A stretch of DNA of 38,529 bases from Candidatus Woesearchaeota archaeon. Lineage in GTDB: Archaea; Nanobdellota; Nanobdellia; Woesearchaeales; J110. The translations under genes were made by a program, and so were the position numbers. Location: the NCBI GenBank assembly GCA_003694805.1, contig RFJU01000121.1, forward strand, positions 1 to 38,529, read 5' to 3'. This document shows, in pieces, positions 11,977 to 37,508 of this stretch (its first letter is position 1; the number at the start of each line of letters is the position of its first letter). The notes below the pieces were generated by a model. The model was not told the origin of the DNA and searched no databases. It saw nothing but the letters and a program-made list of their open reading frames with translations.

Positions 11977-13035
11977 TCAACTCGAGCCCGAGGTCACCTT
12001 TGCATCTTCTCTCTGCACCGCTTCTTCGTGCTCAAAAAGAAGAAGCGCCGCGCCTAGTGCACCAGCAAGACCGCCAAGGCGGGACCGAACAACACGCACC
12101 TTCCTCGCTGAAGGATGAGCGTATGATCTCACACGCGCCTCCAACTCGGAAATGACCGGCAGATCACTGACGCTCCCTCCCACGACGATGAGGTCAAGGC
12201 CAAGAACGGAAGCCAACCCGCCCAGCACCCTCCCCAACGCATCAACAGCGGTAAGGACGACCTTCCGCCCTCCAGCGCCGCCACGCTCCCAGAGCGCGTC
12301 AACACGCTCAAACACTCGCTTGTCACGCTTCCTTGTGCGCCTCCCGGCGAGCGCGGCGTACCGCTTCAGCATAAACTTCCCGCCAGCGATTGACTCTACA
12401 CTTCCACGAACGCCGAGGCCTGAACGAAGCGGCCACGAAGGATCAAGAACGACATGACCAATCTCCCCAACAACACCGCTTCGCGCCCTCAACAAGTTTC
12501 CGCCAATGACGAGCCCCCCACCAACACCAGTCCCCCACGTGACGCCAAGAACGTTTTGCACACCTCTCGCAACGCCCAACCGCGCCTCTGCAAGCGTGAA
12601 GCAGTCAGCATCGTTACCAACCACCACCCGTCCCAGTGACAAGAACCTCCTGCGAACGTCAAACCCGGAAAAAGAAGGAATATTAGGCACCTCTCCCAGC
12701 GCTCCCTTCCACGGCACCACACCAGGAATACCAATACCTACACCAGCAACCTCGTCCTGCAACGCCTTGCTCTCAACCTCCCGCGCAAGAAAGCGCAAGC
12801 AATGCAACATCCTGTTCACGACGAACTCCCGCCCAAACACCGCACCCGTTTTGACCTTGCACGCGGCAACCACGTGCCCATCACGTCTCATAACCACTCC
12901 TGCAATCTTTGTCCCGCCAACGTCAAGGCCAATGCTCAAGCCCGTTTTCCGCGCGCCACCCTGCCCCTCTGCCACGCCTCTCACGCCCCCGCCCTGCGCC
13001 TTTACAACTTTGCTCGTCTTCAACTCAGACCGCAT
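11977..13035 (-). CDS. ROK family sugar kinase lacking the zinc-binding cysteines
   Basis: ROK proteins include ATP-dependent kinases for glucose, N-acetylmannosamine and related sugars. The phosphate-binding segment GLDVGGTKIAG (about residues 36-46), the catalytic GNDAD (140-144, Asp142), a GTGVGGG loop (168-174) and GEIGHVVLDP (190-199, His193) are all present. The usual zinc loop after it, CxCGxxGCxE, is replaced by a stretch with no cysteine that ends in RGSVESIAGG. The zinc site is therefore gone while the sugar-binding His and Glu remain. The N-terminal 30 residues are Gly/Lys-rich and precede the fold. The TATA box spacing favours ATG over a GTG two codons upstream. The substrate cannot be assigned. 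Glucose is the usual default for archaeal members. Confidence 0.88.
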   Translation of the reverse strand: MRSELKTSKVVKAQGGGVRGVAEGQGGARKTGLSIGLDVGGTKIAGVVMRRDGHVVAACKVKTGAVFGREFVVNRMLHCLRFLAREVESKALQDEVAGVGIGIPGVVPWKGALGEVPNIPSFSGFDVRRRFLSLGRVVVGNDADCFTLAEARLGVARGVQNVLGVTWGTGVGGGLVIGGNLLRARSGVVGEIGHVVLDPSWPLRSGLGVRGSVESIAGGKFMLKRYAALAGRRTRKRDKRVFERVDALWERGGAGGRKVVLTAVDALGRVLGGLASVLGLDLIVVGGSVSDLPVISELEARVRSYAHPSARKVRVVRSRLGGLAGALGAALLLFEHEEAVQREDAKVTSGSS

Positions 13036-13058
13036 AACCACACTCCATTCTATGATAC

Positions 13059-13067
13059 TTAATATAA
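13059..13067 (-). promoter_or_regulatory. TATA box for the ROK kinase
   Basis: TTATATTAA on the minus strand predicts a start near 13037, two bases before the ATG. A 12-bp tandem duplication lies just upstream of the box. Confidence 0.5.
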
Positions 13068-13069
13068 GT

Positions 13070-13093
13070 TTCTATGGGAGCTTCTATGGGAGC
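13070..13093 (+). repeat. Perfect 12-bp tandem duplication
   Basis: TTCTATGGGAGC occurs twice in direct contact, just upstream of the ROK TATA box and between divergent promoters. It could be a duplicated regulator site or a replication slip. Confidence 0.85.
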
Positions 13094-13235
13094 CACGTGC
13101 AGGTTTGCAAGAATCCAAAGACACGCCGTCCCTTGCGAACCCCGCATCTTGTGAAGAAAACGCAAGAAAACAAAAACCGTTCCCCGCAAACCTCACAAGC
13201 GCTTTCGCCTACCGCAAGCACCCCCCACAGCAAGG

Positions 13236-13244
13236 CTTTTAAAG
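13236..13244 (+). promoter_or_regulatory. TATA box for the MopE-like surface protein
   Basis: CTTTTAAAG is centred about 34 bp before the ATG, which predicts transcription starting close to 13266 and a leader of about 8 bases. It supports the start that begins with a signal peptide over much longer upstream reading frames. Confidence 0.5.
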
Positions 13245-13273
13245 GTGGCGCGCTCAGTACCTTCTGTTCCACG

Positions 13274-15961
13274 ATGGTCCGGCAACAAAAATCGATCCTG
13301 CACAACCGCCGCGCGTATCTTCTCCTCGCCCTCCTCGCAATGCTCATCCTCCTCACGCACACCCATCCCTCCCTCGCAGCCTGCATTCAACAAGACGACT
13401 GCGACGGGGATGGCGTCAGCACAGCACAAGACTGCAACGACAACGACCCTGACGTCGGATGGGTGAACGACGAAGCAGCCTTTGAGGACTATTGCGACGA
13501 CGGAAAAGACAACGACTGTGACGGCATCATCGACTGCACCGAACTCAACTGCAGACTCTCCTACGGCTACCCAGGCGGCGCGTGCGAAGGCTGCTTTGAC
13601 TGGGACAGCGACGGAGCCGTAACGGACCAGGCAACATCGTGCCCGACCGGCGGCGTGTACGACTGCTACGACCCCATCATGAACCCCGAGGACCCAAGCA
13701 CGCTCATCTTCCTCGCGCCACGATCCCTCTACCCTGACATCGACCCCACCTGCGACTGTGACCTAGACAACCAACCCCCTCTCGAATACGAAATCTGTGG
13801 CAACGGCATCGACGACGACTGCTTCCGGGACGACACGCTCGGCAAAGACCCTGCTTGCACCCAACCTTGTTCTGCCGTGGATCAAGACGGCGACCAATAC
13901 GGAACACCCCCCCAATGGAACTGCGAGAACAATAAACGCTACAACATCATCATTCCCGACTGCGACGACACCAACCCGAACATCTACCCACAGAATCCGA
14001 ACCCGTACTGCGACTGCGACCCCTCCAACGGCGTCAAGCAAGAAGCAGACATTTGCGGCAACGGCATCGATGAAGATTGCGACGGGCAAGACCTCTCATG
14101 CTCCCAAAGCTGCACGGACAACGACAATGACGGGTACGGCTCCCAAGCAAGCAGCCAATGCGCCCAGACAGGACTTGACTGCAACGATGCCGACGCGGCC
14201 GTCAACCCAGGGGCTACAGAGCTTTGCACAAACGGAAAAGACGACGACTGCGACGGGAGCGTTGACTGCGACGACGCAGACTGCTTCGCCGCCTGCCAAA
14301 CGTGCACGGACACCTGCACCAGCCTCGGAAAAGCCTGCGGACTTTGGACCATCTGCAACGAACTCCAAAACTGCGGAACGTGCCCGCAAGGACAAAGCTG
14401 TAATGCTAACGGGGAATGCGTCAATGAATGCGTCCCCACTCACGCTTTTGAAATATGCGGCAACAGCGTCGACGAGGACTGTGACGGCACCATTCTTGAA
14501 ACCTGCTCTTGCCAAGCGTTCGACCAAGACGCGGACGGATACAGCACCTTTGACCAAAGCAAATGCCCTGCACCTCCCGGAGGGGCGGACTGCGACGACA
14601 CCAACCCTGCCATCAACCCAGGCGCGGCCGATATTTGCGGTAATGGCATTGATGAAAACTGCCAAGGAGGAGACAGGGAATGCTCCTGCATCGACGAGGA
14701 CGGGGACGGCTACTTCGCCCAAGACCCAATCTTTTGCCCCAACCCTGCCGGAGGCGCGGACTGCGACGACACCAACCCCGCCATCAACCCCGGCGTCGCA
14801 GGACCGTACTGCAGCTGCCCTGCAAACCCTTCCGAAGAAGTCTGCGGCAACGACGTTGACGAGGACTGCAGCGGCGCAGCGGCAGGATGCACTACCTGTT
14901 CCGACGGCACCTTCGACGGAGAGTGCAACACGAAGGGGGAAGTGTGCGACGCACAAACGAACACGCTCACGTTCAACTGTGACCTGTGCCAAAACGCGTG
15001 CGGAACCGGCTTCATCTGCGAAAACAACGCCTGCGTCCCCACGACAGGGACTTGCACGGACGGCACCCCTAGCGGCGCTTGCAACGCGCAACACGAACTC
15101 TGCCAAGACACAGGAGGCGCGGGGAGCGGCTCGCCTCCTCACCAGTACCAACTCGAGTTCGACTGCGAAACGTGCGGGTGTGACGAAGGCTACGTGTGCA
15201 GCGAAAACACTTGCGTCAACCTAGCAGACATCACCCTCCTCCTCCCCCCCATCTTCTCAACCACGCCGCCTTCCCAACAAATACCCGGCCAGCCGCGGCC
15301 CCACTCGCTCACCGACCTCATCAACCAACCCGTTCACGAATGCGGAGCCCAATGGGCATGCTCGGCGTGGGGGCCGTGCACGAACAACGTTCAACAACGC
15401 ACGTGCACGGAAGTTACTGCACTCGGGTGCGGCAAGCCAGCAACAACGAGAATCTGTACTCAGCACCAAGAGAGCCAAGAAAAAACCGGCGAAACCATTC
15501 CTGGCCTGGCCAAGACTCCGGAGCAAGAAGAAACAACAAAATCAGACTCCGCAAAAGAGGACGAAAACGCAGAAACACGCGCTCGCACGTTCCTCGGCGC
15601 CCCTTCGTGGATAGGAATAACCGTCCTTGCCCTCTTTCTTATCATTATCATCAGCCTGGCTCTTCTCAAGCTCTTGGCTCCAAAACATCCCGACACGTAC
15701 TCCCCATCACCACCCCTCCAAACACAGAACAACAACTGGCAACACCCCCCCGCCACACAAGCCACGCCAGGAACACCGCCACCCACGCCAGCGCAACAAC
15801 AACCCTTCGCGACACCGCAACCTCCAGGACTGCCCCCTGTTGAGCTGCGCATCAACCAACTAAAAGCCCAAGGCCTCGGCTACCTGGCAATAAAAATACG
15901 GCTCGTCAACGAAGGCTACCCCCTCCCCGTCATTGAAGAAGCAATGCAACGCAGCAACTAA
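13274..15961 (+). CDS. Secreted, membrane-anchored MopE-like Cys/Asp repeat protein
   Basis: The 895-aa protein starts with a basic MVRQQKS segment and a signal peptide (hydrophobic about residues 16-32) ending near SLAAC. The extracellular part has at least seven CGNGIDEDCDG-type motifs and several DCDDTNPAINPG motifs. These are the paired signatures of the putative metal-binding MopE family (PF11617). Asp/Asn clusters suggest calcium binding and paired cysteines suggest disulfides. A second Cys-rich part follows, then a thrombospondin-1-like WACSAWGPC segment. A membrane helix (about 777-805) leads to a Pro/Gln-rich cytoplasmic tail with a conserved-looking terminal helix pair (RINQLKAQGLGYLAIKIRLV, VIEEAMQ). 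It is probably a surface adhesion, scaffold or metal-binding protein. Precise ligands are unknown. Confidence 0.9.
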   Translation: MVRQQKSILHNRRAYLLLALLAMLILLTHTHPSLAACIQQDDCDGDGVSTAQDCNDNDPDVGWVNDEAAFEDYCDDGKDNDCDGIIDCTELNCRLSYGYPGGACEGCFDWDSDGAVTDQATSCPTGGVYDCYDPIMNPEDPSTLIFLAPRSLYPDIDPTCDCDLDNQPPLEYEICGNGIDDDCFRDDTLGKDPACTQPCSAVDQDGDQYGTPPQWNCENNKRYNIIIPDCDDTNPNIYPQNPNPYCDCDPSNGVKQEADICGNGIDEDCDGQDLSCSQSCTDNDNDGYGSQASSQCAQTGLDCNDADAAVNPGATELCTNGKDDDCDGSVDCDDADCFAACQTCTDTCTSLGKACGLWTICNELQNCGTCPQGQSCNANGECVNECVPTHAFEICGNSVDEDCDGTILETCSCQAFDQDADGYSTFDQSKCPAPPGGADCDDTNPAINPGAADICGNGIDENCQGGDRECSCIDEDGDGYFAQDPIFCPNPAGGADCDDTNPAINPGVAGPYCSCPANPSEEVCGNDVDEDCSGAAAGCTTCSDGTFDGECNTKGEVCDAQTNTLTFNCDLCQNACGTGFICENNACVPTTGTCTDGTPSGACNAQHELCQDTGGAGSGSPPHQYQLEFDCETCGCDEGYVCSENTCVNLADITLLLPPIFSTTPPSQQIPGQPRPHSLTDLINQPVHECGAQWACSAWGPCTNNVQQRTCTEVTALGCGKPATTRICTQHQESQEKTGETIPGLAKTPEQEETTKSDSAKEDENAETRARTFLGAPSWIGITVLALFLIIIISLALLKLLAPKHPDTYSPSPPLQTQNNNWQHPPATQATPGTPPPTPAQQQPFATPQPPGLPPVELRINQLKAQGLGYLAIKIRLVNEGYPLPVIEEAMQRSN

Positions 15962-16921: not shown

Positions 16922-17172
16922 TTTGTACTTGTTAGTTTTTTTAGTCTTCTACCAGTATACTACTATTATACTATCTTATTATCTTATTTTATTATCTTAT
17001 TAACTTTATTTGTTAACTTTATACTGCCTTGCACCCTCTATTTCTACTAACCACAGCAGTTCACAGCACCTATCCCGCCCTGATTTTTTATCCATTCTGT
17101 TTTTTTCCTTTCCTAACACCTTTCTTCCTTGTTCCCCCGCACATCCCCGCCATTTAAAAACAAAGCAGAAGG
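16922..17172. other. AT-rich intergenic region between divergent genes
   Basis: This stretch is unusually T-rich on the + strand. It holds three copies of ATCTTATT (starting at 16973, 16981 and 16994) and two copies of TTAACTTTAT (17000 and 17013). No convincing gene is seen. The A/C bias of the + strand resumes on both sides with the same sign, so there is no skew reversal to suggest a replication origin. It probably holds promoter elements for both flanking genes. Confidence 0.6.
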
Positions 17173-17181
17173 AATTAAATA
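17173..17181 (+). promoter_or_regulatory. TATA box for the macrodomain gene
   Basis: AATTAAATA predicts transcription near 17203, two bases before an in-frame GTG. A weaker ATTTAAAA box lies about 20 bp upstream. Confidence 0.45.
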
Positions 17182-17204
17182 GGAGTTTTACCATAAAAGA
17201 GAAC

Positions 17205-17753
17205 GTGAAACTCTACATCTACGTTATCCAAGACGACATTACCAACGTCGCTGCAGACGCGATCGTGAACGCGGCGAACCCTTCTCTCATGGGAGGAGGA
17301 GGTGTCGACGGCGCCATCCATGAAGAAGCAGGACCTGAACTCCTTGACGCATGCAAAGAAATTCGCAGAACAAAATACCCCGACGGACTCCCTGTCGGCG
17401 AAGCCGTTGCCACTCCTGCGTTCGACCTCCCCGCCCGTATCGTAATCCACACCGTCGCCCCAAAAAAAGGAAAAGACCCCTTGGAAAAACTCCGCGACTG
17501 CTACCTCAATGCGCTACGCCTCGCAGACCGCTACCGGTGCGAAAGCATCGCCTTCCCCGCACTCGGGACCGGCGCGTACGGCATCCCCATCGACTACTCT
17601 GCCCAAACCGCCAAGGACATCCTTACCACGTACAAACCCTTTTGCGTTCGCAAAGTCTTCCTCGTTCTCCTCGGCGACGAACACTACCGCATCTACAAAA
17701 CCTTTTTCCACGAAGACAAAGAGAACACCACAGAAACAACTACGAAAACATAG
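17205..17753 (+). CDS. Macrodomain protein (ADP-ribose binding or hydrolysing)
   Basis: Macrodomains of this YmdB/MacroD-like type bind ADP-ribose and often remove it or its O-acetyl form. The 182-aa protein covers a full domain. It has DDITNVAADAIVNAANP with the Asn-Ala-Ala-Asn motif (about residues 24-27), the glycine loop GGGGVDGAIHEEAGPEL, and the second substrate loop ALGTGAYGIP. The N-terminal Asn and the loop Gly/Asp residues needed for hydrolysis are present. The start is a GTG, chosen because the conserved fold begins there and a TATA box is placed for leaderless transcription. A longer frame upstream is low-complexity and unlikely to be translated. The C-terminus is Thr/Lys-rich. 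No toxin or ADP-ribosyltransferase is adjacent. Confidence 0.9.
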   Translation: MKLYIYVIQDDITNVAADAIVNAANPSLMGGGGVDGAIHEEAGPELLDACKEIRRTKYPDGLPVGEAVATPAFDLPARIVIHTVAPKKGKDPLEKLRDCYLNALRLADRYRCESIAFPALGTGAYGIPIDYSAQTAKDILTTYKPFCVRKVFLVLLGDEHYRIYKTFFHEDKENTTETTTKT

Positions 17754-22690: not shown

Positions 22691-25195
22691 ATGCCCAACC
22701 GCTACCTCGCGGCACTCTTCCTCCTTCTTCTCACGAGCAACGCCGCCCTTGCAACGTTCGAAACCAGCATAACCTCAGAAAACATAAAAATACGACCTTG
22801 GGACGCGGCACCACGCACGAAAACACACACCATCGATGCCGTAAAAGGCGAATGGGTAGCAACACAAATCATCACTCGCACGCAAGACAGGAGCACGAGC
22901 GGCATTGACATCACCGCAACGCCGCCGCAACGCAAGAACGACTACCTCCCAAGCCTCTCATTCTACAAGGAATACAACCACGACCTCATGTACGCGAGCA
23001 GAGTCGCAGGAGGCGCAGGAGAGTGGCCGGACGCGCTCATTCCAAAAAAAGACCCGTACTACCATGAAGAACGAAACGCATTCCCCTACGACGTAAAGCT
23101 GGTAAGCAAAGCATACAACGTTTGGGGATACAACCTCACCGGCCAATGGAAAATCAACAGAAGAAACAGCGCCCAACACCCACCACAACCGCTGGGCGAG
23201 TATACAGGAAACGAAGCCCGCGTCTACCACATCAAAATAACCCAGCCAGGCCAAGCAGGACTTGCGCAATTCGTGTGGAGCGACGACGACGGCGCCACGT
23301 GGTCACCGCCACAAACCGTCCCGGCAAGCCCCACCGAAACCATCCCCCTCTCCAACGGCATCAGCGTACAATTCCCCGTGCAAACCAAGGACTACGCAAC
23401 CGACGACGAATACGAATTCTTCGCCAACACCTACCGAAACGACGTTATCTGGGCTGAAACCTTCATCCCAGAAGACACCGCGCCAGGAACCTACACGTCA
23501 ACCATTACCGTCACCGCAGACAACCAGCCACCCCAAACACTCAACCTCACCATCATCGTCCACGACATCACCATCCCCCGAACCAGCTCCATCCCGGTAT
23601 GGTACCTTGCAAGCAGAAACAGCATCAGTGCCGGGCACGCCCAACAAATAAACCCGGGAGGAGACTGGGAAGCGCTCTTTGACGACTACCTCGAAGAAGG
23701 CCTCAAACACCGCATCACCCTTGACGGCCTCTACCCATTCCTCTCCTGGAACGGCACGGACATCACCAACTGGGACGTGTTCGCCGCAAAAGCACGCCCG
23801 TACCTGAACGGGCAGTGGAGCTACGGAGCCAAGGCCAGCTTCCTTCAACTCCCCCGCGCCCCCCCGCACGACTCCTTCTTCAACCTCATCTTCAAAGAAA
23901 CCATTAAAGAATACGACCTCAAAGAATACCGCCTCGACATCACAAGAGAAAACTACTCCCTCCCCTTCATCATGGGAGAGCGAGTCACGCTTCAAAACGG
24001 AGCCAGCTTTAGAAACCTTCACGAAAGCCAACCGTACTTCGCCGACGAAGTCGACGGGGTTCTCAAGCCCGGCACGAACATGACAGGAACGCAATCGAAC
24101 GCGACAGCAACGCTCACGGCAGCAACACCGTCAGAAACGTTCTACCTTGACAAGCTCGACAACCTCCTCGCCCAGGAAGGATGGCTGGACAAGACGTACA
24201 ACTACATGATAGAAGAGCCGACTTGGCCAAATGAGTACTCAAGCACGAACTACACGGACACGCCAGCACCGCAAACCATGACCGACGCCATTCGGCAAAC
24301 AAGCACGAGCATGAAAGCCATCAACCCCGAATTCAAAAACTTCGCTGTCGAAATCTACCAAGAAGAATGGGAAGACGCTATTGACGTCTGGGTCCCTAGC
24401 ATAGCAGGATGTGGCCGAACAGGGTACGTCGATTGTTACGCGAGCCGCGACAAGCAAGACATCGTTCAATGGAGCTACGCTGCTTGCGGCACACATCATT
24501 GCTACCGGACTGGAGACGACACCTTCACAAAACTCCCCACGCACATCATCGACGCAAATTTCACCAACCTTCGAGGCATGTACTGGCTCAAGTACAACGG
24601 CAACATCACTGGCGACCTGTACTGGCGGGTCGACTACCAATTCGTCTTCGCAGGCCACAGCACCCCTATTGACCCGTGGGAAAACATCTGGTTCGCTGGA
24701 GGAAACGGCGACGGCACGCTCTTCTACCCCGGCCGCCCAAACATCGTTGGCGGCACTCATCACATCCCCATCAGCTCCCTGCGCGTCAAAGCCATACGAG
24801 AAGGTCTTGAAGACTACGAACTCTTCGCCCTCGCAACGCAAAGGGGTCTGCGAAGCGACGTCCTTGACGCTATCAAAGACGCTGTTGGGACGGACTGGTA
24901 CGCGTACACCACCCTCCCCACCCCCGCCGCTATGGACCACGCAAGAAAAGAGGTCATCACCCTCCTCGAAGGAACCTGCTACACGCCAGCAAGGGCCGGC
25001 GACGTGGACTGCAATAGCGAGGTAAACATCTACGACCTCACCCTCGTCGGGAGCAGCTTCGGCACAACACCCCAAAGCCCGGACTGGAATAGGAAAGGCA
25101 AACGCGCAAATGCATGCAGCACGACAGAGCTCTCCCCCCGCGTCGGCGTAGAAGACCTCAACTGCGTTAGCCAAAACTTCGGCAACGCCGACTAG
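22691..25195 (+). CDS. Secreted DUF4091 (GH123-like) protein with dockerin-like C-terminus
   Basis: The 834-aa protein has a signal peptide (about residues 1-21, ending ALA). An N-terminal beta-sandwich region follows, with GEWVATQIITRTQD and a later WAETFIPEDTAPGTYTSTIT segment typical of this family. The alpha/beta-barrel-like part carries YNYMIEEPTW, where GH123/DUF4091 proteins usually show a DEP-type catalytic pair; here it is Glu508-Glu509. The family end motif is clear at about 672-720 (GDGTLFYPGRP, then SLRVKAIREGLEDYELFAL). The last 65 residues look like a dockerin or EF-hand pair (GDVDCNSEVNIYDLTLVG and GVEDLNCVSQNFG). It probably cuts or binds an external glycan, perhaps an N-acetylhexosamine polymer. 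Substrate and activity are inferred. Confidence 0.85.
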   Translation: MPNRYLAALFLLLLTSNAALATFETSITSENIKIRPWDAAPRTKTHTIDAVKGEWVATQIITRTQDRSTSGIDITATPPQRKNDYLPSLSFYKEYNHDLMYASRVAGGAGEWPDALIPKKDPYYHEERNAFPYDVKLVSKAYNVWGYNLTGQWKINRRNSAQHPPQPLGEYTGNEARVYHIKITQPGQAGLAQFVWSDDDGATWSPPQTVPASPTETIPLSNGISVQFPVQTKDYATDDEYEFFANTYRNDVIWAETFIPEDTAPGTYTSTITVTADNQPPQTLNLTIIVHDITIPRTSSIPVWYLASRNSISAGHAQQINPGGDWEALFDDYLEEGLKHRITLDGLYPFLSWNGTDITNWDVFAAKARPYLNGQWSYGAKASFLQLPRAPPHDSFFNLIFKETIKEYDLKEYRLDITRENYSLPFIMGERVTLQNGASFRNLHESQPYFADEVDGVLKPGTNMTGTQSNATATLTAATPSETFYLDKLDNLLAQEGWLDKTYNYMIEEPTWPNEYSSTNYTDTPAPQTMTDAIRQTSTSMKAINPEFKNFAVEIYQEEWEDAIDVWVPSIAGCGRTGYVDCYASRDKQDIVQWSYAACGTHHCYRTGDDTFTKLPTHIIDANFTNLRGMYWLKYNGNITGDLYWRVDYQFVFAGHSTPIDPWENIWFAGGNGDGTLFYPGRPNIVGGTHHIPISSLRVKAIREGLEDYELFALATQRGLRSDVLDAIKDAVGTDWYAYTTLPTPAAMDHARKEVITLLEGTCYTPARAGDVDCNSEVNIYDLTLVGSSFGTTPQSPDWNRKGKRANACSTTELSPRVGVEDLNCVSQNFGNAD

Positions 25196-25250: not shown

Positions 25251-25275
25251 CCTCTTGCCTGTTCTCACACCCATC

Positions 25276-27966
25276 ATGCCACCGTCCACAACACCACCAA
25301 TAGACTTGCGTTTGCTCCCTAAAAAATGGCAGAAGCGCTGGGAAAGAGCCGGCATCTTCAAAACCAGAGAAGACCCTGCCAAAGAAAAATACTACGTCCT
25401 AGAAATGTACCCCTACCCGAGCGGCTCCGGCCTCCACATGGGACACGCGCGCAACTACTGCATCGGCGACGCGTACGCTCGCTACCAACGCATGCGCGGC
25501 AAAAACGTCCTCTACCCAATGGGGTACGACAGCTTTGGCCTCCCCGCAGAGAACGCAGCCATTAAGGCCAAGAGCCATCCAAAAAAATTCACGGAAGCAG
25601 CCATTGAACAATTCAAACGCCAACAACGTGCTCTCGGCCTGAGCTACGACTGGGACAGACTCATCATGTCCCACGACCCCTCATTCTACCAATGGGACCA
25701 GTGGCTTTTCCTCAAACTCTACGAGAAAGGACTTGTTTACCGCAAAAAAAGCATTGTAAACTGGTGCCCGGCGTGCCAGACCGTCCTCGCCAACGAGCAA
25801 GTCCACAACGGCACGTGCTGGCGGCACGAAGACACCAACGTTGAGATCAAAGACCTCGAACAATGGTTCATCAAAACCACCGCGTACGCAGAAGAGCTTC
25901 TCAAAGGCCTCGATTCGCTTGATCACTGGCCTGACGATGTCAAAACCATGCAGCGCAACTGGATTGGCAAGAGCACCGGCACCATCATTGAATTCCCTGT
26001 TGAGGGCAGCGACAAGAAGCTTCGCGTTTTCACCACGAGACCAGACACCTTCTTTGGCATCACCTTCCTCGTCTACGCCCCCGAACACCCTGACGTCAAG
26101 GAATTCGTTAAAGGAACGCCTTATGAGAAGCAGACAAAAGCATTCATTGAAAAAGTCCTCCTCCAAGACCGCTTCCAACGAACCGCGGAGGACAAGGAAA
26201 AAGAAGGCCTCTTTATTGGAAAATATGCCATCAACCCCCTCACCAAGGAAAAAATCCCTATCTACATTGCTAACTTCGTCCTCTACGAATACGGCACCGG
26301 TGCGATCATAGCCGTCCCGGCCCACGACCAGCGCGACTTTCTCTTCGCAAAAAAATACAACATCCCCATCAAAGTCGTGATCAACCCTCCCGACTTCGAC
26401 CTCGACCCGAGCAAGATGAGCCGGGCCTACACGGGTGACGGCTACCTCGTCAACTCCGCTGAATTCAACGGCATGCACAACCGTGACGCGATGGAGGCTA
26501 TCACTGAACACCTCAAGGCAAAAAAGTGCGGCGGCCCCAGCACGCAGTACAAGCTCCGCGACTGGCTCGTCTCGCGCCAGCGCTTCTGGGGATGCCCAAT
26601 TCCCATGATACATTGCGAGGAGTGCGGCATCGTGCCCGTCCCTGAAAAAGAGCTTCCTGTCAGGCTCCCTGAAGACTTCACCTTCACCGCCACCGAAGGA
26701 AACCCTCTTGCACATTGCGAAGCATTTGTCAACACAACGTGCCCTTCATGTGGCAAGCCAGCAAAACGAGAAACGGACACTATGGACACCTTCTTTGATA
26801 GTAGCTGGTACTTCCTGCGCTACTGCGACCAGCATAACCACACACAGCCGTTCAGCCCAAAAAAAGCTGCGTACTGGATGCCCATTGACACGTACATCGG
26901 TGGCAAGGAACACGCGACAATGCACCTCATTTACTTTCGGTTCTTTACCAAATTTCTCCGAGATATTGGCTTCCTCTCCATTGACGAACCATGCATCCGC
27001 CTCTTTAACCAAGGCATGGTACACAAGGAAGGAACGGTCATGAGCAAGAGCAAAGGAAACGTTGTCACCCAAGAAGAAATTGAAAAAACATTCGGGATCG
27101 ACACTGCGCGGTTCTTCCTCCTCTTCGTCGCCTCCCCCGACAAAGACCTCGAATGGGATGACAAAGGCGTTGCGGGCGCTCACCGCTTCCTCACCAGAAT
27201 CATCGACCTCTACACGAGAAAGGAACTCACAAGCGAGCTTCCAAAGAATCAAGAGAGCAAGCTTCACCGAACCATCAGAGACGTTACAACCAGCATTGAA
27301 TCTTTCAAATTCAACAACGCGCTCGTAAGCATTATGCAGTTCGCACACTATCTCATCGAAGAAGAACGCGTCAGTACAGTCGCGCTCAAGCACCTTGCCA
27401 AGCTTCTTGCACCGTTCACACCTCACCTTGCAGAAGAGCTCTGGGAGCTTCTCGATGAACAAGCCTTTATCAGCCTCGCGCCGTGGCCAGCCTATGATGA
27501 GAGCAAGATCGACGAAGAACTGGAAAGCCATGAACGCACCCTCAAAACAACTATTGCTGACCTGCAAAACGTTAAGAAACTCTCAGGCATCGCCCGCCCA
27601 AAACAAGCAACGCTCTTCATCGCGGCCCCGTGGAAATACTCCCTCGTTCAAGCCATCAAAGAAGAACTTTCGAAAGGAAGCGACGCCAAAACACTCTTCC
27701 AAGCTGTGATGCAACGAGACGAAGTCAAACAACACGGGCAAGAGGCTGCAAAGCTCATCCCCCGCCTCGCCAAAGACCAAAGCAAACTCCCTCTCTTCGT
27801 GAGCTCCCCGGAGAACGAGCGCGCCTACCTTGAGGAAAAAAAGAACATCATCGCCAAGCGCGCACAACTCGAAGCAGAAAGCATAAAGGTTGTCCACGAA
27901 CAAGAAAGCAAAGAAGCCAAGGCACGCCAATCCCTTCCTGGCAAGCCAGCAATCCTCCTGTTATGA
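25276..27966 (+). CDS. leuS: Leucyl-tRNA synthetase, bacterial type
   Basis: Class I synthetase that charges tRNA-Leu. The 896-aa protein has the HIGH-type motif GLHMGHARNY (His54 to His57), an editing domain with TTRPDTFFGITFLVYAPEHP, zinc-like pairs in WCPACQ and CPSCGK, and the KMSKS motif as MSKSKGN (about residues 589-595). The opening YPYPSGSGLHMGH, NVLYPMGYDSFGLPAENAA and the size match bacterial LeuRS. Archaeal and eukaryotic LeuRS has a differently placed editing domain and distinct signatures. The gene was therefore probably acquired from bacteria and replaced the native one. Its stop overlaps the convergent sigma-like gene by six bases. The C-terminal anticodon-side region is intact up to a short LPGKPAILLL end. 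Confidence 0.93.
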   Translation: MPPSTTPPIDLRLLPKKWQKRWERAGIFKTREDPAKEKYYVLEMYPYPSGSGLHMGHARNYCIGDAYARYQRMRGKNVLYPMGYDSFGLPAENAAIKAKSHPKKFTEAAIEQFKRQQRALGLSYDWDRLIMSHDPSFYQWDQWLFLKLYEKGLVYRKKSIVNWCPACQTVLANEQVHNGTCWRHEDTNVEIKDLEQWFIKTTAYAEELLKGLDSLDHWPDDVKTMQRNWIGKSTGTIIEFPVEGSDKKLRVFTTRPDTFFGITFLVYAPEHPDVKEFVKGTPYEKQTKAFIEKVLLQDRFQRTAEDKEKEGLFIGKYAINPLTKEKIPIYIANFVLYEYGTGAIIAVPAHDQRDFLFAKKYNIPIKVVINPPDFDLDPSKMSRAYTGDGYLVNSAEFNGMHNRDAMEAITEHLKAKKCGGPSTQYKLRDWLVSRQRFWGCPIPMIHCEECGIVPVPEKELPVRLPEDFTFTATEGNPLAHCEAFVNTTCPSCGKPAKRETDTMDTFFDSSWYFLRYCDQHNHTQPFSPKKAAYWMPIDTYIGGKEHATMHLIYFRFFTKFLRDIGFLSIDEPCIRLFNQGMVHKEGTVMSKSKGNVVTQEEIEKTFGIDTARFFLLFVASPDKDLEWDDKGVAGAHRFLTRIIDLYTRKELTSELPKNQESKLHRTIRDVTTSIESFKFNNALVSIMQFAHYLIEEERVSTVALKHLAKLLAPFTPHLAEELWELLDEQAFISLAPWPAYDESKIDEELESHERTLKTTIADLQNVKKLSGIARPKQATLFIAAPWKYSLVQAIKEELSKGSDAKTLFQAVMQRDEVKQHGQEAAKLIPRLAKDQSKLPLFVSSPENERAYLEEKKNIIAKRAQLEAESIKVVHEQESKEAKARQSLPGKPAILLL

Positions 27967-36347: not shown

Positions 36348-37508
36348 ATGAAAAAACACGCTGCTCCTTCCCCACCACCCTCATCCGCCATCATCCCGAC
36401 AGTGTTCTCCCACTCAAAACAAGAATTCACCGCTCGCCTCAACAAAATCCAAGGCCTCACCCGCAACATCCAAATCGACTTTATGGACGGCACATTCGTT
36501 AAAGACAAAAGCATCGCCCTTCGAGACGTTCCCAACCTTGAAGCAAACCCTGCAACCTTCGAAGCACACCTCATGACCTCCTCGCCCAGGCGATGGCTCG
36601 CCCCCCTCCGAAAAAAAGGATTTTCCAAGGTTATTTTCCACATCGAAGCAACGCGCAACGCTGAAGAAACACTCGCCATCATACATGAGGCATGCAGCCT
36701 CAACCTCCACCCCTTCATCGCCATCAATCCGTCAACACCTATTGAGCGCGTATTTCCCTTCATCAACCACGCAGCAGGAATCCTCATCATGGGCATTCCT
36801 CCCGGAAAAGAACACCAGCGCTTCCTCACAAAGAACTACCAGCGCATACGACGACTCCGAGAGAAAAGTGCACGAACACCCATCCAAGTCGACGGCGGCG
36901 TTCTTCCATCCGTCGCCGAAAAACTCGCTCGAGTCGGGACCGACCTCATTAACAGCGGAAGCTACATCGCCACAGCAAAACAACCAGCCAAGGCGTTAGA
37001 GAAGCTCCAAGACGCCTTCACAAAAGGCGCGGCTTCCCGCACCAAAGCCAAAGAACAAAGCCAAACTTACGACCGCATCACGAAACACATCTACCTCGGG
37101 CCGAACCGGTGCTGCCTCGTCCCCGGATTTGACAAGGAACTCGTCGCCCAAGGCATCAGCGCAGATGTCAGCCTCGAAGAATTTCGCATCGACGCGCCGC
37201 ACGGCATCAAGCACTTCCTCTGGCTCCCAACACCAGACCACAAACCCCCAACACTAGACCAACTCTTCACCGGGACGGCATTCCTTCACGCCATCGAAAA
37301 AAGAAACGCAAAAGCCTACGTTCACTGCGAACTCGGAAGAACACGATCCCCAACACTCGTAGCAGCATATCTCATCAGCAAAGGCAAAACCATAGCGCAA
37401 GCAATTGACTTCATAAAGAAAAAAAGACCCTACATCCACATAACAAAGGCGCAACGAGCCGGACTGGCACGATTCGCATCGACGTGGAGGAACCATGCCC
37501 GCCGCTAA
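36348..37508 (+). CDS. Ribulose-phosphate 3-epimerase fused to a dual-specificity phosphatase domain
   Basis: The N-terminal part (about residues 13-225) is an RPE barrel: IIPTVFSHS, QIDFMDGTFV, FEAHLMTS, FHIEA, AINPSTPIERV, VDGGVLPSVAEKLA and NSGSYI. Metal ligands His74, Asp44 and Asp182 are kept, but the usual first histidine of HxDxMDG is Gln42. The C-terminal part (about 240-380) is a dual-specificity phosphatase: IYLGPNRC, LWLPTPDHKPP (Asp297 as likely acid) and the active-site loop VHCELGRTRSP (Cys327 with Arg333, the CX5R rule). The frame is continuous with no sign of a sequencing frameshift. The stop lies 14 bases inside the transketolase gene. The phosphatase might act on a sugar phosphate, a protein or a nucleotide. 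Confidence 0.9.
   Translation: MKKHAAPSPPPSSAIIPTVFSHSKQEFTARLNKIQGLTRNIQIDFMDGTFVKDKSIALRDVPNLEANPATFEAHLMTSSPRRWLAPLRKKGFSKVIFHIEATRNAEETLAIIHEACSLNLHPFIAINPSTPIERVFPFINHAAGILIMGIPPGKEHQRFLTKNYQRIRRLREKSARTPIQVDGGVLPSVAEKLARVGTDLINSGSYIATAKQPAKALEKLQDAFTKGAASRTKAKEQSQTYDRITKHIYLGPNRCCLVPGFDKELVAQGISADVSLEEFRIDAPHGIKHFLWLPTPDHKPPTLDQLFTGTAFLHAIEKRNAKAYVHCELGRTRSPTLVAAYLISKGKTIAQAIDFIKKKRPYIHITKAQRAGLARFASTWRNHARR

Follow-up and report, generated by a model that had tools for sequence, protein, structure and literature searches.

A GH123-superfamily protein with a Glu-Glu pair and a dockerin-like tail in a small-genome archaeon

In GH123 enzymes, according to passages of a Nat Commun 2024 paper, PMC11087588, an Asp stabilises the 2-acetamido group; the Asp-Glu (DE) pair is retained in 94% of 734 DUF4091 sequences, and mutants in which this Asp was changed to Glu or Asn show little to no activity. 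Proteins of this family are already known in archaea, the case described in the same passages being NgaBa. Cohesins and dockerins are known outside cellulosomes as well: passages of PMC9012536 describe them in Archaeoglobus and ANME archaea, with archaeal pairs verified to bind, those of PMC9123182 describe a CPR bacterium expressing cohesin-type and dockerin domains, and those of PMC10066038 present dockerin domains of Omnitrophota as possible adhesins. In titles, abstract beginnings and passages of the literature on cohesins or dockerins in DPANN, Woesearchaeota and Nanoarchaeota, no such system is described. A cohesin-dockerin set with hydrolase-like proteins offers concrete, expressible proteins for probing an open question, namely how archaea of very small genome size engage with partner cells and polymers.

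In this work, we analyzed a GH123-like gene in a window of 38,529 nucleotides (the whole stretch of DNA examined) from an archaeal genome of 1.21 Mb in 176 contigs, with an estimated completeness of 96%; because the assembly is fragmented, the assignment of contigs to the genome rests on binning and composition. The small genome sizes of its relatives suggest that the genome belongs to a DPANN-type phylum (Nanoarchaeota, Woesearchaeales-like). Upstream (5') of the gene lie archaeal-type genes for uS13, uS4, RpoD, L13 and uS9, which identify the contig as archaeal and support the archaeal host assumed in an earlier, sequence-only reading of this DNA. The features of the gene are the following.

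22691..25195, + strand: whole gene, 834 aa, ATG start, stop codon within the coordinates
22691..22753, + strand: signal peptide, about residues 1-21 (by eye; helix 3-16 in the model)
22754..23590, + strand: N-terminal beta-sandwich, about residues 22-300, insert included (model strands and alignment to GH123 structures)
23117..23422, + strand: insert, about residues 143-244 (low model confidence; weak BNR-like match at 184-260)
24140..24832, + strand: GH123_cat match, residues 484-714 (Pfam)
24212..24217, + strand: Glu508-Glu509, replacing the catalytic Asp-Glu pair (alignment)
24974..25192, + strand: dockerin-like tail, residues 762-834 (own-genome homologues and profile search)
25001..25036, + strand: first EF-type loop, canonical, residues 771-782 (loop pattern DVDCNSEVNIYD)

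The leader, MPNRYLAALFLLLLTSNAALA, is of Sec type by eye, as expected for the secreted protein that had been proposed. Elsewhere in the window, the gene 3' of the GH123-like gene (25255-27963, +) encodes a leucyl-tRNA synthetase of bacterial type (TIGR00396, 954 bits) in this archaeal genome, a macro-domain protein (17010-17750, +) adjoins the ribosomal gene cluster, and a 386-residue frame (36348-37505, +) has a ribulose-phosphate 3-epimerase domain at residues 16-207 followed by a dual-specificity phosphatase domain at 283-373.

The GH123/DUF4091 relationship that the sequence-only reading had suggested was confirmed by both sequence and predicted structure. PF13320 (GH123_cat) scored 38.5 bits, above its cut-off of 23.1 (E 1.2e-9), the GH123 N-terminal Pfam gave weak matches below its cut-off, NCBIfam gave no match, and the family end motif (YPG ... 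SLRVKAIREGLEDYE) was found as had been claimed. PDB sequence matches were to GH123-type enzymes only, and a search of the PDB with the alignment profile recovered 11 distinct sequences at E<=0.001, all of them likewise GH123-type enzymes. A structure model built with 40 relatives in the alignment (mean pLDDT 71, pTM 0.76) was mostly confident at roughly residues 21-140, 250-350 and 480-765, and poorly so at 143-244, 406-478 and in the tail. In this model, the N-terminal beta-sandwich and the (beta/alpha)8 barrel of GH123 are predicted. The best 22 Foldseek matches were all GH123 chains, and the VIA comparison with NgaCa (8k2f) gave Z 35.9 and an rmsd of 2.5 over 466 residues, the best other fold reaching Z 10.9.

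The Glu-Glu pair that had been noted is encoded by GAA GAG in the context YNYMIEEPT and aligns with the DE of all alignable relatives: in 61 of 61, the position equivalent to 508 is Asp and that equivalent to 509 is Glu. This count covers 61 of the 64 bacterial relatives described below, L087, L102 and L116 being left out where the chosen frames misaligned. Two further GH123_cat proteins among 371 genomes of the phylum both read VDEP by eye. Passages of PMC11087588 name nine residues as conserved between GH123 groups. Mapped by alignment and spacing onto NgaLy numbering and not by coordinates, eight of them are kept (D114, W254, E509, Y596, G641, W645, Y679 and R698), and the only one changed is the stabilising Asp of substrate-assisted catalysis. 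As the consecutive catalytic Asp-Glu pair that serves as a criterion of GH123 is absent, the protein is classed as a GH123-superfamily homologue and not as an active GH123 enzyme; furthermore, given the changed stabiliser and the little or no activity of Asp-to-Glu mutants, GalNAcase activity should not be assumed.

It is very improbable that Glu508 is a one-base sequencing or assembly error in an ordinary GH123 enzyme. Asp and Glu codons do lie one base apart and Glu508 has been seen in a single genome, but changes are also seen at 492, 553, 572, 597, 618 and 642, positions that 19 or more of the 20 closest relatives conserve, so the site region is remodelled in several places and not at one base alone. 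A compensating swap between 508 and 642 was considered and dropped: by strand alternation, 642 should point away from Trp645, and it is unconserved beyond the nearest clade. A second alternative, which we regard as possible though doubtful, is that the protein has become a pseudoenzyme, its docked GH123 scaffold now binding glycans as an adhesin and tethering the archaeon to matrix or partner cells. The loss of an Asp invariant in 61 of 61 relatives, the several further changes at the site and the near-inactivity of the published Asp-to-Glu mutants (passages of PMC11087588) all fit with it, as do the long branch of the protein and the lack of a PF00528 importer permease, both reported below; against it stand the intact GH123 fold and the retention of the acid Glu509 together with seven other cross-group residues, among them Y596 and W645, which lie near the substrate. 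Glu508 may still support substrate-assisted hydrolysis in an adjusted site, or the protein may have turned into an enzyme of weak activity or a binder of glycans. With most of the GH123 site otherwise intact, the EE pair probes how far substrate-assisted catalysis depends on its Asp.

The relatives of the protein are bacterial. A profile search of the contig collection with the fragment alignment recovered 64 bacterial loci related to it; no relative was found by the whole-protein scan of the same collection, by a search of viral contigs with a five-row alignment, or at E<=1e-5 in the other 116 of 117 related genomes. In a tree built by a quick method, the protein was sister to 20 rows (SH-aLRT 99) comprising Acidobacteriota, Myxococcota, a Schekmanbacteria bin, a gammaproteobacterial bin and two unassigned bins; its end branch measured 2.39 against a median of 0.35, which makes its exact position in the tree unsure. 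Dockerin-type patterns, searched in the 64 relatives, were found in none, three of the frames being doubtful. Two acidobacterial loci, L083 and L091, have genes for heparinase II/III-like and asparagine-synthase-like proteins as neighbours, L083 also one for a glycosyltransferase, as in exopolysaccharide clusters; the archaeal gene lacks neighbours of these kinds.

The C-terminal tail had been read as a dockerin-like, calcium-binding segment. PF00404 (dockerin) gave no match to the protein at E<=1, and the tail folded alone was uninformative (pLDDT 34), but the tail has homologues in its own genome: a search with 72 residues of it recovered proteins on contigs C141 (59%), C140 (60%, cut by the contig end), C68 (46%) and C99 (42%), plus a fragment on C111, and a five-row tail profile recovered the identical set. 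Homologous tails are thus present in four other proteins of the genome, and DLTLVGS is common to all five. Searched against the PDB, the profile of these five tails found dockerins first, at E 0.001 to 0.005 (2y3n_B, 5lxv_B and 4fl4_A), and PF00404 itself was matched by proteins of C68, C99 and C72. Two dockerin matches were discounted as tails, that of C72 being internal and that of C146 sub-threshold. Judged by these sequence comparisons, the tail reads as a divergent dockerin that the family profile did not detect, and its dockerin-like character is supported. For calcium binding it is only half canonical: in the GH123-like protein the first loop keeps the canonical pattern and the second, by eye, has degenerated, while the second loop of the C68 and C99 tails is canonical.

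The carriers of these tails differ. The C141 protein is a beta-helix protein by a weak Pfam match (E 0.0037), with chance-level matches only to PDB sequences, an assignment to Chondroitinas_B (E 0.051) being discarded as too weak; that of C140 looks beta-helical by eye and has MopE motifs and a galactose-binding domain; that of C99 is a subtilase with MopE motifs; and that of C68 is unassigned, with a MopE motif. The end of C111 overlaps the start of C140 by 43 bases. In addition, L012:1-99, at the start of C141, matches L163:2104-2202, in the end region of C111, over about 99 bases at 99%, a stretch that covers the end of a dockerin tail and may represent a further tail gene, a repeat or an assembly fork.

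The sequence-only reading had proposed a genome search for cohesins, and with PF00963 this search found two cohesin domains, both on contig C130. One belongs to a protein of 184 residues, encoded at L011:1003-1554, with a hydrophobic leader and, by eye, a lipobox-like cysteine, which matches PDB cohesins at 1.2e-11; the other lies in a 950-residue frame that has MopE repeats and is truncated where the contig ends, and its cohesin scored 23.1 bits in the whole-protein scan, just below the cut-off of 24.1. A third candidate, on C163, was dropped as antisense to a longer frame. No multi-cohesin protein was found in the genome, which has two proteins with one cohesin each (one running off its contig), and the system is therefore not classed as a cellulosome. 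The tetranucleotide correlation with the window was 0.88 for C130 and 0.91 to 0.94 for C140, C68, C141, C99 and C72, as against -0.13 to 0.11 for three relatives from the phylum and 0.49 for an acidobacterial locus; C146 reached 0.76 only. MopE-type motifs recur in cohesin and dockerin proteins of the genome, and in the window a 1151-residue frame (12506-15958, +) has three matches to MopE-type metal-binding motifs.

Across the phylum, cohesins (E<=0.001) were detected in 21 of 371 genomes and dockerins (E<=0.01) in 107, and the 13 genomes with both are more than expected (one-sided Fisher p 0.0012, or 0.0020 with over-cut-off cohesins and the present genome left out, kinship being ignored in both). 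Among ten cohesin neighbourhoods, taken from nine of the 20 other cohesin genomes, dockerin genes directly precede cohesin genes in G048 (dockerin 22.7 bits, cut-off 22.9) and G267, and G014 has cohesin and dockerin in one protein, the dockerin being weak (E 0.0076). A neighbouring pair in G320 was not counted since its cohesin was not repeated by whole-protein hmmscan. Loci L167 (G267:C11) and L170 (G014:C125) show adaptor-scaffoldin-like runs of adjacent cohesin and dockerin genes, and in both a cohesin and a dockerin-like segment share one protein, by a weak Pfam call in L170 and by eye in L167. Several cohesin proteins of the phylum end in a hydrophobic segment that resembles a membrane anchor by eye.

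Dockerin matches also occur in 94 of the 350 genomes with no detected cohesin, and 8 of the 21 cohesin genomes have no dockerin match, so the tail may serve another use. It could be a general calcium-stabilised segment for sorting or cell-wall association, common in the phylum, the cohesins then being unrelated adhesion domains. The 94 genomes, the degenerate second loop and the missing Pfam call agree with such a segment, but the dockerins in 13 of 21 cohesin genomes, the adjacent genes in G048 and G267 and the profile relation to cohesin-bound PDB dockerins do not, and we consider it rather unlikely.

Regarding the role of the protein, the use of external glycans to which the sequence-only reading had pointed is putative. 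A search of the genome for PF00528 ABC importer permeases gave none at E<=0.01, while 14 of 14 control genomes have one, so that uptake by this importer class is unlikely, with the proviso that the assembly is about 96% complete. By this result, it is slightly more likely that glycans are trimmed or bound than that they are taken up through a PF00528-type importer. The sole ROK-family kinase match of the genome lies in the window (12037-12933, -).

Taken together, these results make it rather probable that a bacterial-type GH123 protein, a candidate enzyme, has been captured into an archaeal cohesin-dockerin surface system, in which its docking is putative. The small-genome archaeon would have acquired a GH123-superfamily protein of bacterial descent that came to carry the lineage's own dockerin tail. 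The Sec route would export it, and its tail would most likely plug into one of the single-cohesin proteins presumed to lie at the surface, alongside other dockerin-tailed proteins, namely the beta-helix proteins and the subtilisin-like protease. Once docked, it may act on polymers that contain hexosamine and belong to neighbouring cells or to a biofilm matrix. Its most likely role is that of a hexosaminidase-like protein, putatively docked, whose targets would be glycans of surfaces or matrix. More speculatively, and with considerably less confidence, small-genome archaea of this phylum might build miniature cellulosome-like surface complexes, in which single-cohesin lipoproteins or membrane proteins hold dockerin-tailed proteins (EE-pair GH123, beta-helix lyase-like proteins and subtilisin-like protease) that trim the glycan coat of partner cells or cling to it; the EE pair would mark a GH123 branch whose catalytic chemistry or specificity has changed.

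Among known systems, those of Archaeoglobus and ANME archaea, as presented in passages of PMC9012536, likewise have cohesins and dockerins outside cellulose degradation; here, however, they occur in a small-genome phylum, the dockerin carriers include a protease and beta-helix proteins besides the GH123-like protein, and a multi-cohesin protein was not found. The cellulosomal dockerins 2y3n_B, 5lxv_B and 4fl4_A are those that the own-genome tail profile finds first, whereas the tail of the GH123-like protein has a degenerate second loop, loop cysteines and a weak score. NgaBa, a Group 3 protein from a Bathyarchaeia archaeon, is likewise an archaeal GH123 protein; going by its description in passages of PMC11087588, it differs in having been characterised as an active enzyme and in coming from a different archaeal phylum and GH123 group. 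The closest likeness in structure is to NgaCa, the GH123 Group 1 beta-N-acetylgalactosaminidase (PDB 8k2f and 8k2g; PMC11087588): the two-domain fold is alike, with 22% identity over 466 residues, the acid Glu is alike, and 8 of the 9 cross-group positions carry identical residues. In contrast to NgaCa, the archaeal protein falls outside the clade with the Cohnella L109 and Nostoc rows in our tree, has Glu and not Asp as stabiliser, and adds an insert of about 100 residues in the N-terminal domain together with the dockerin-like tail.
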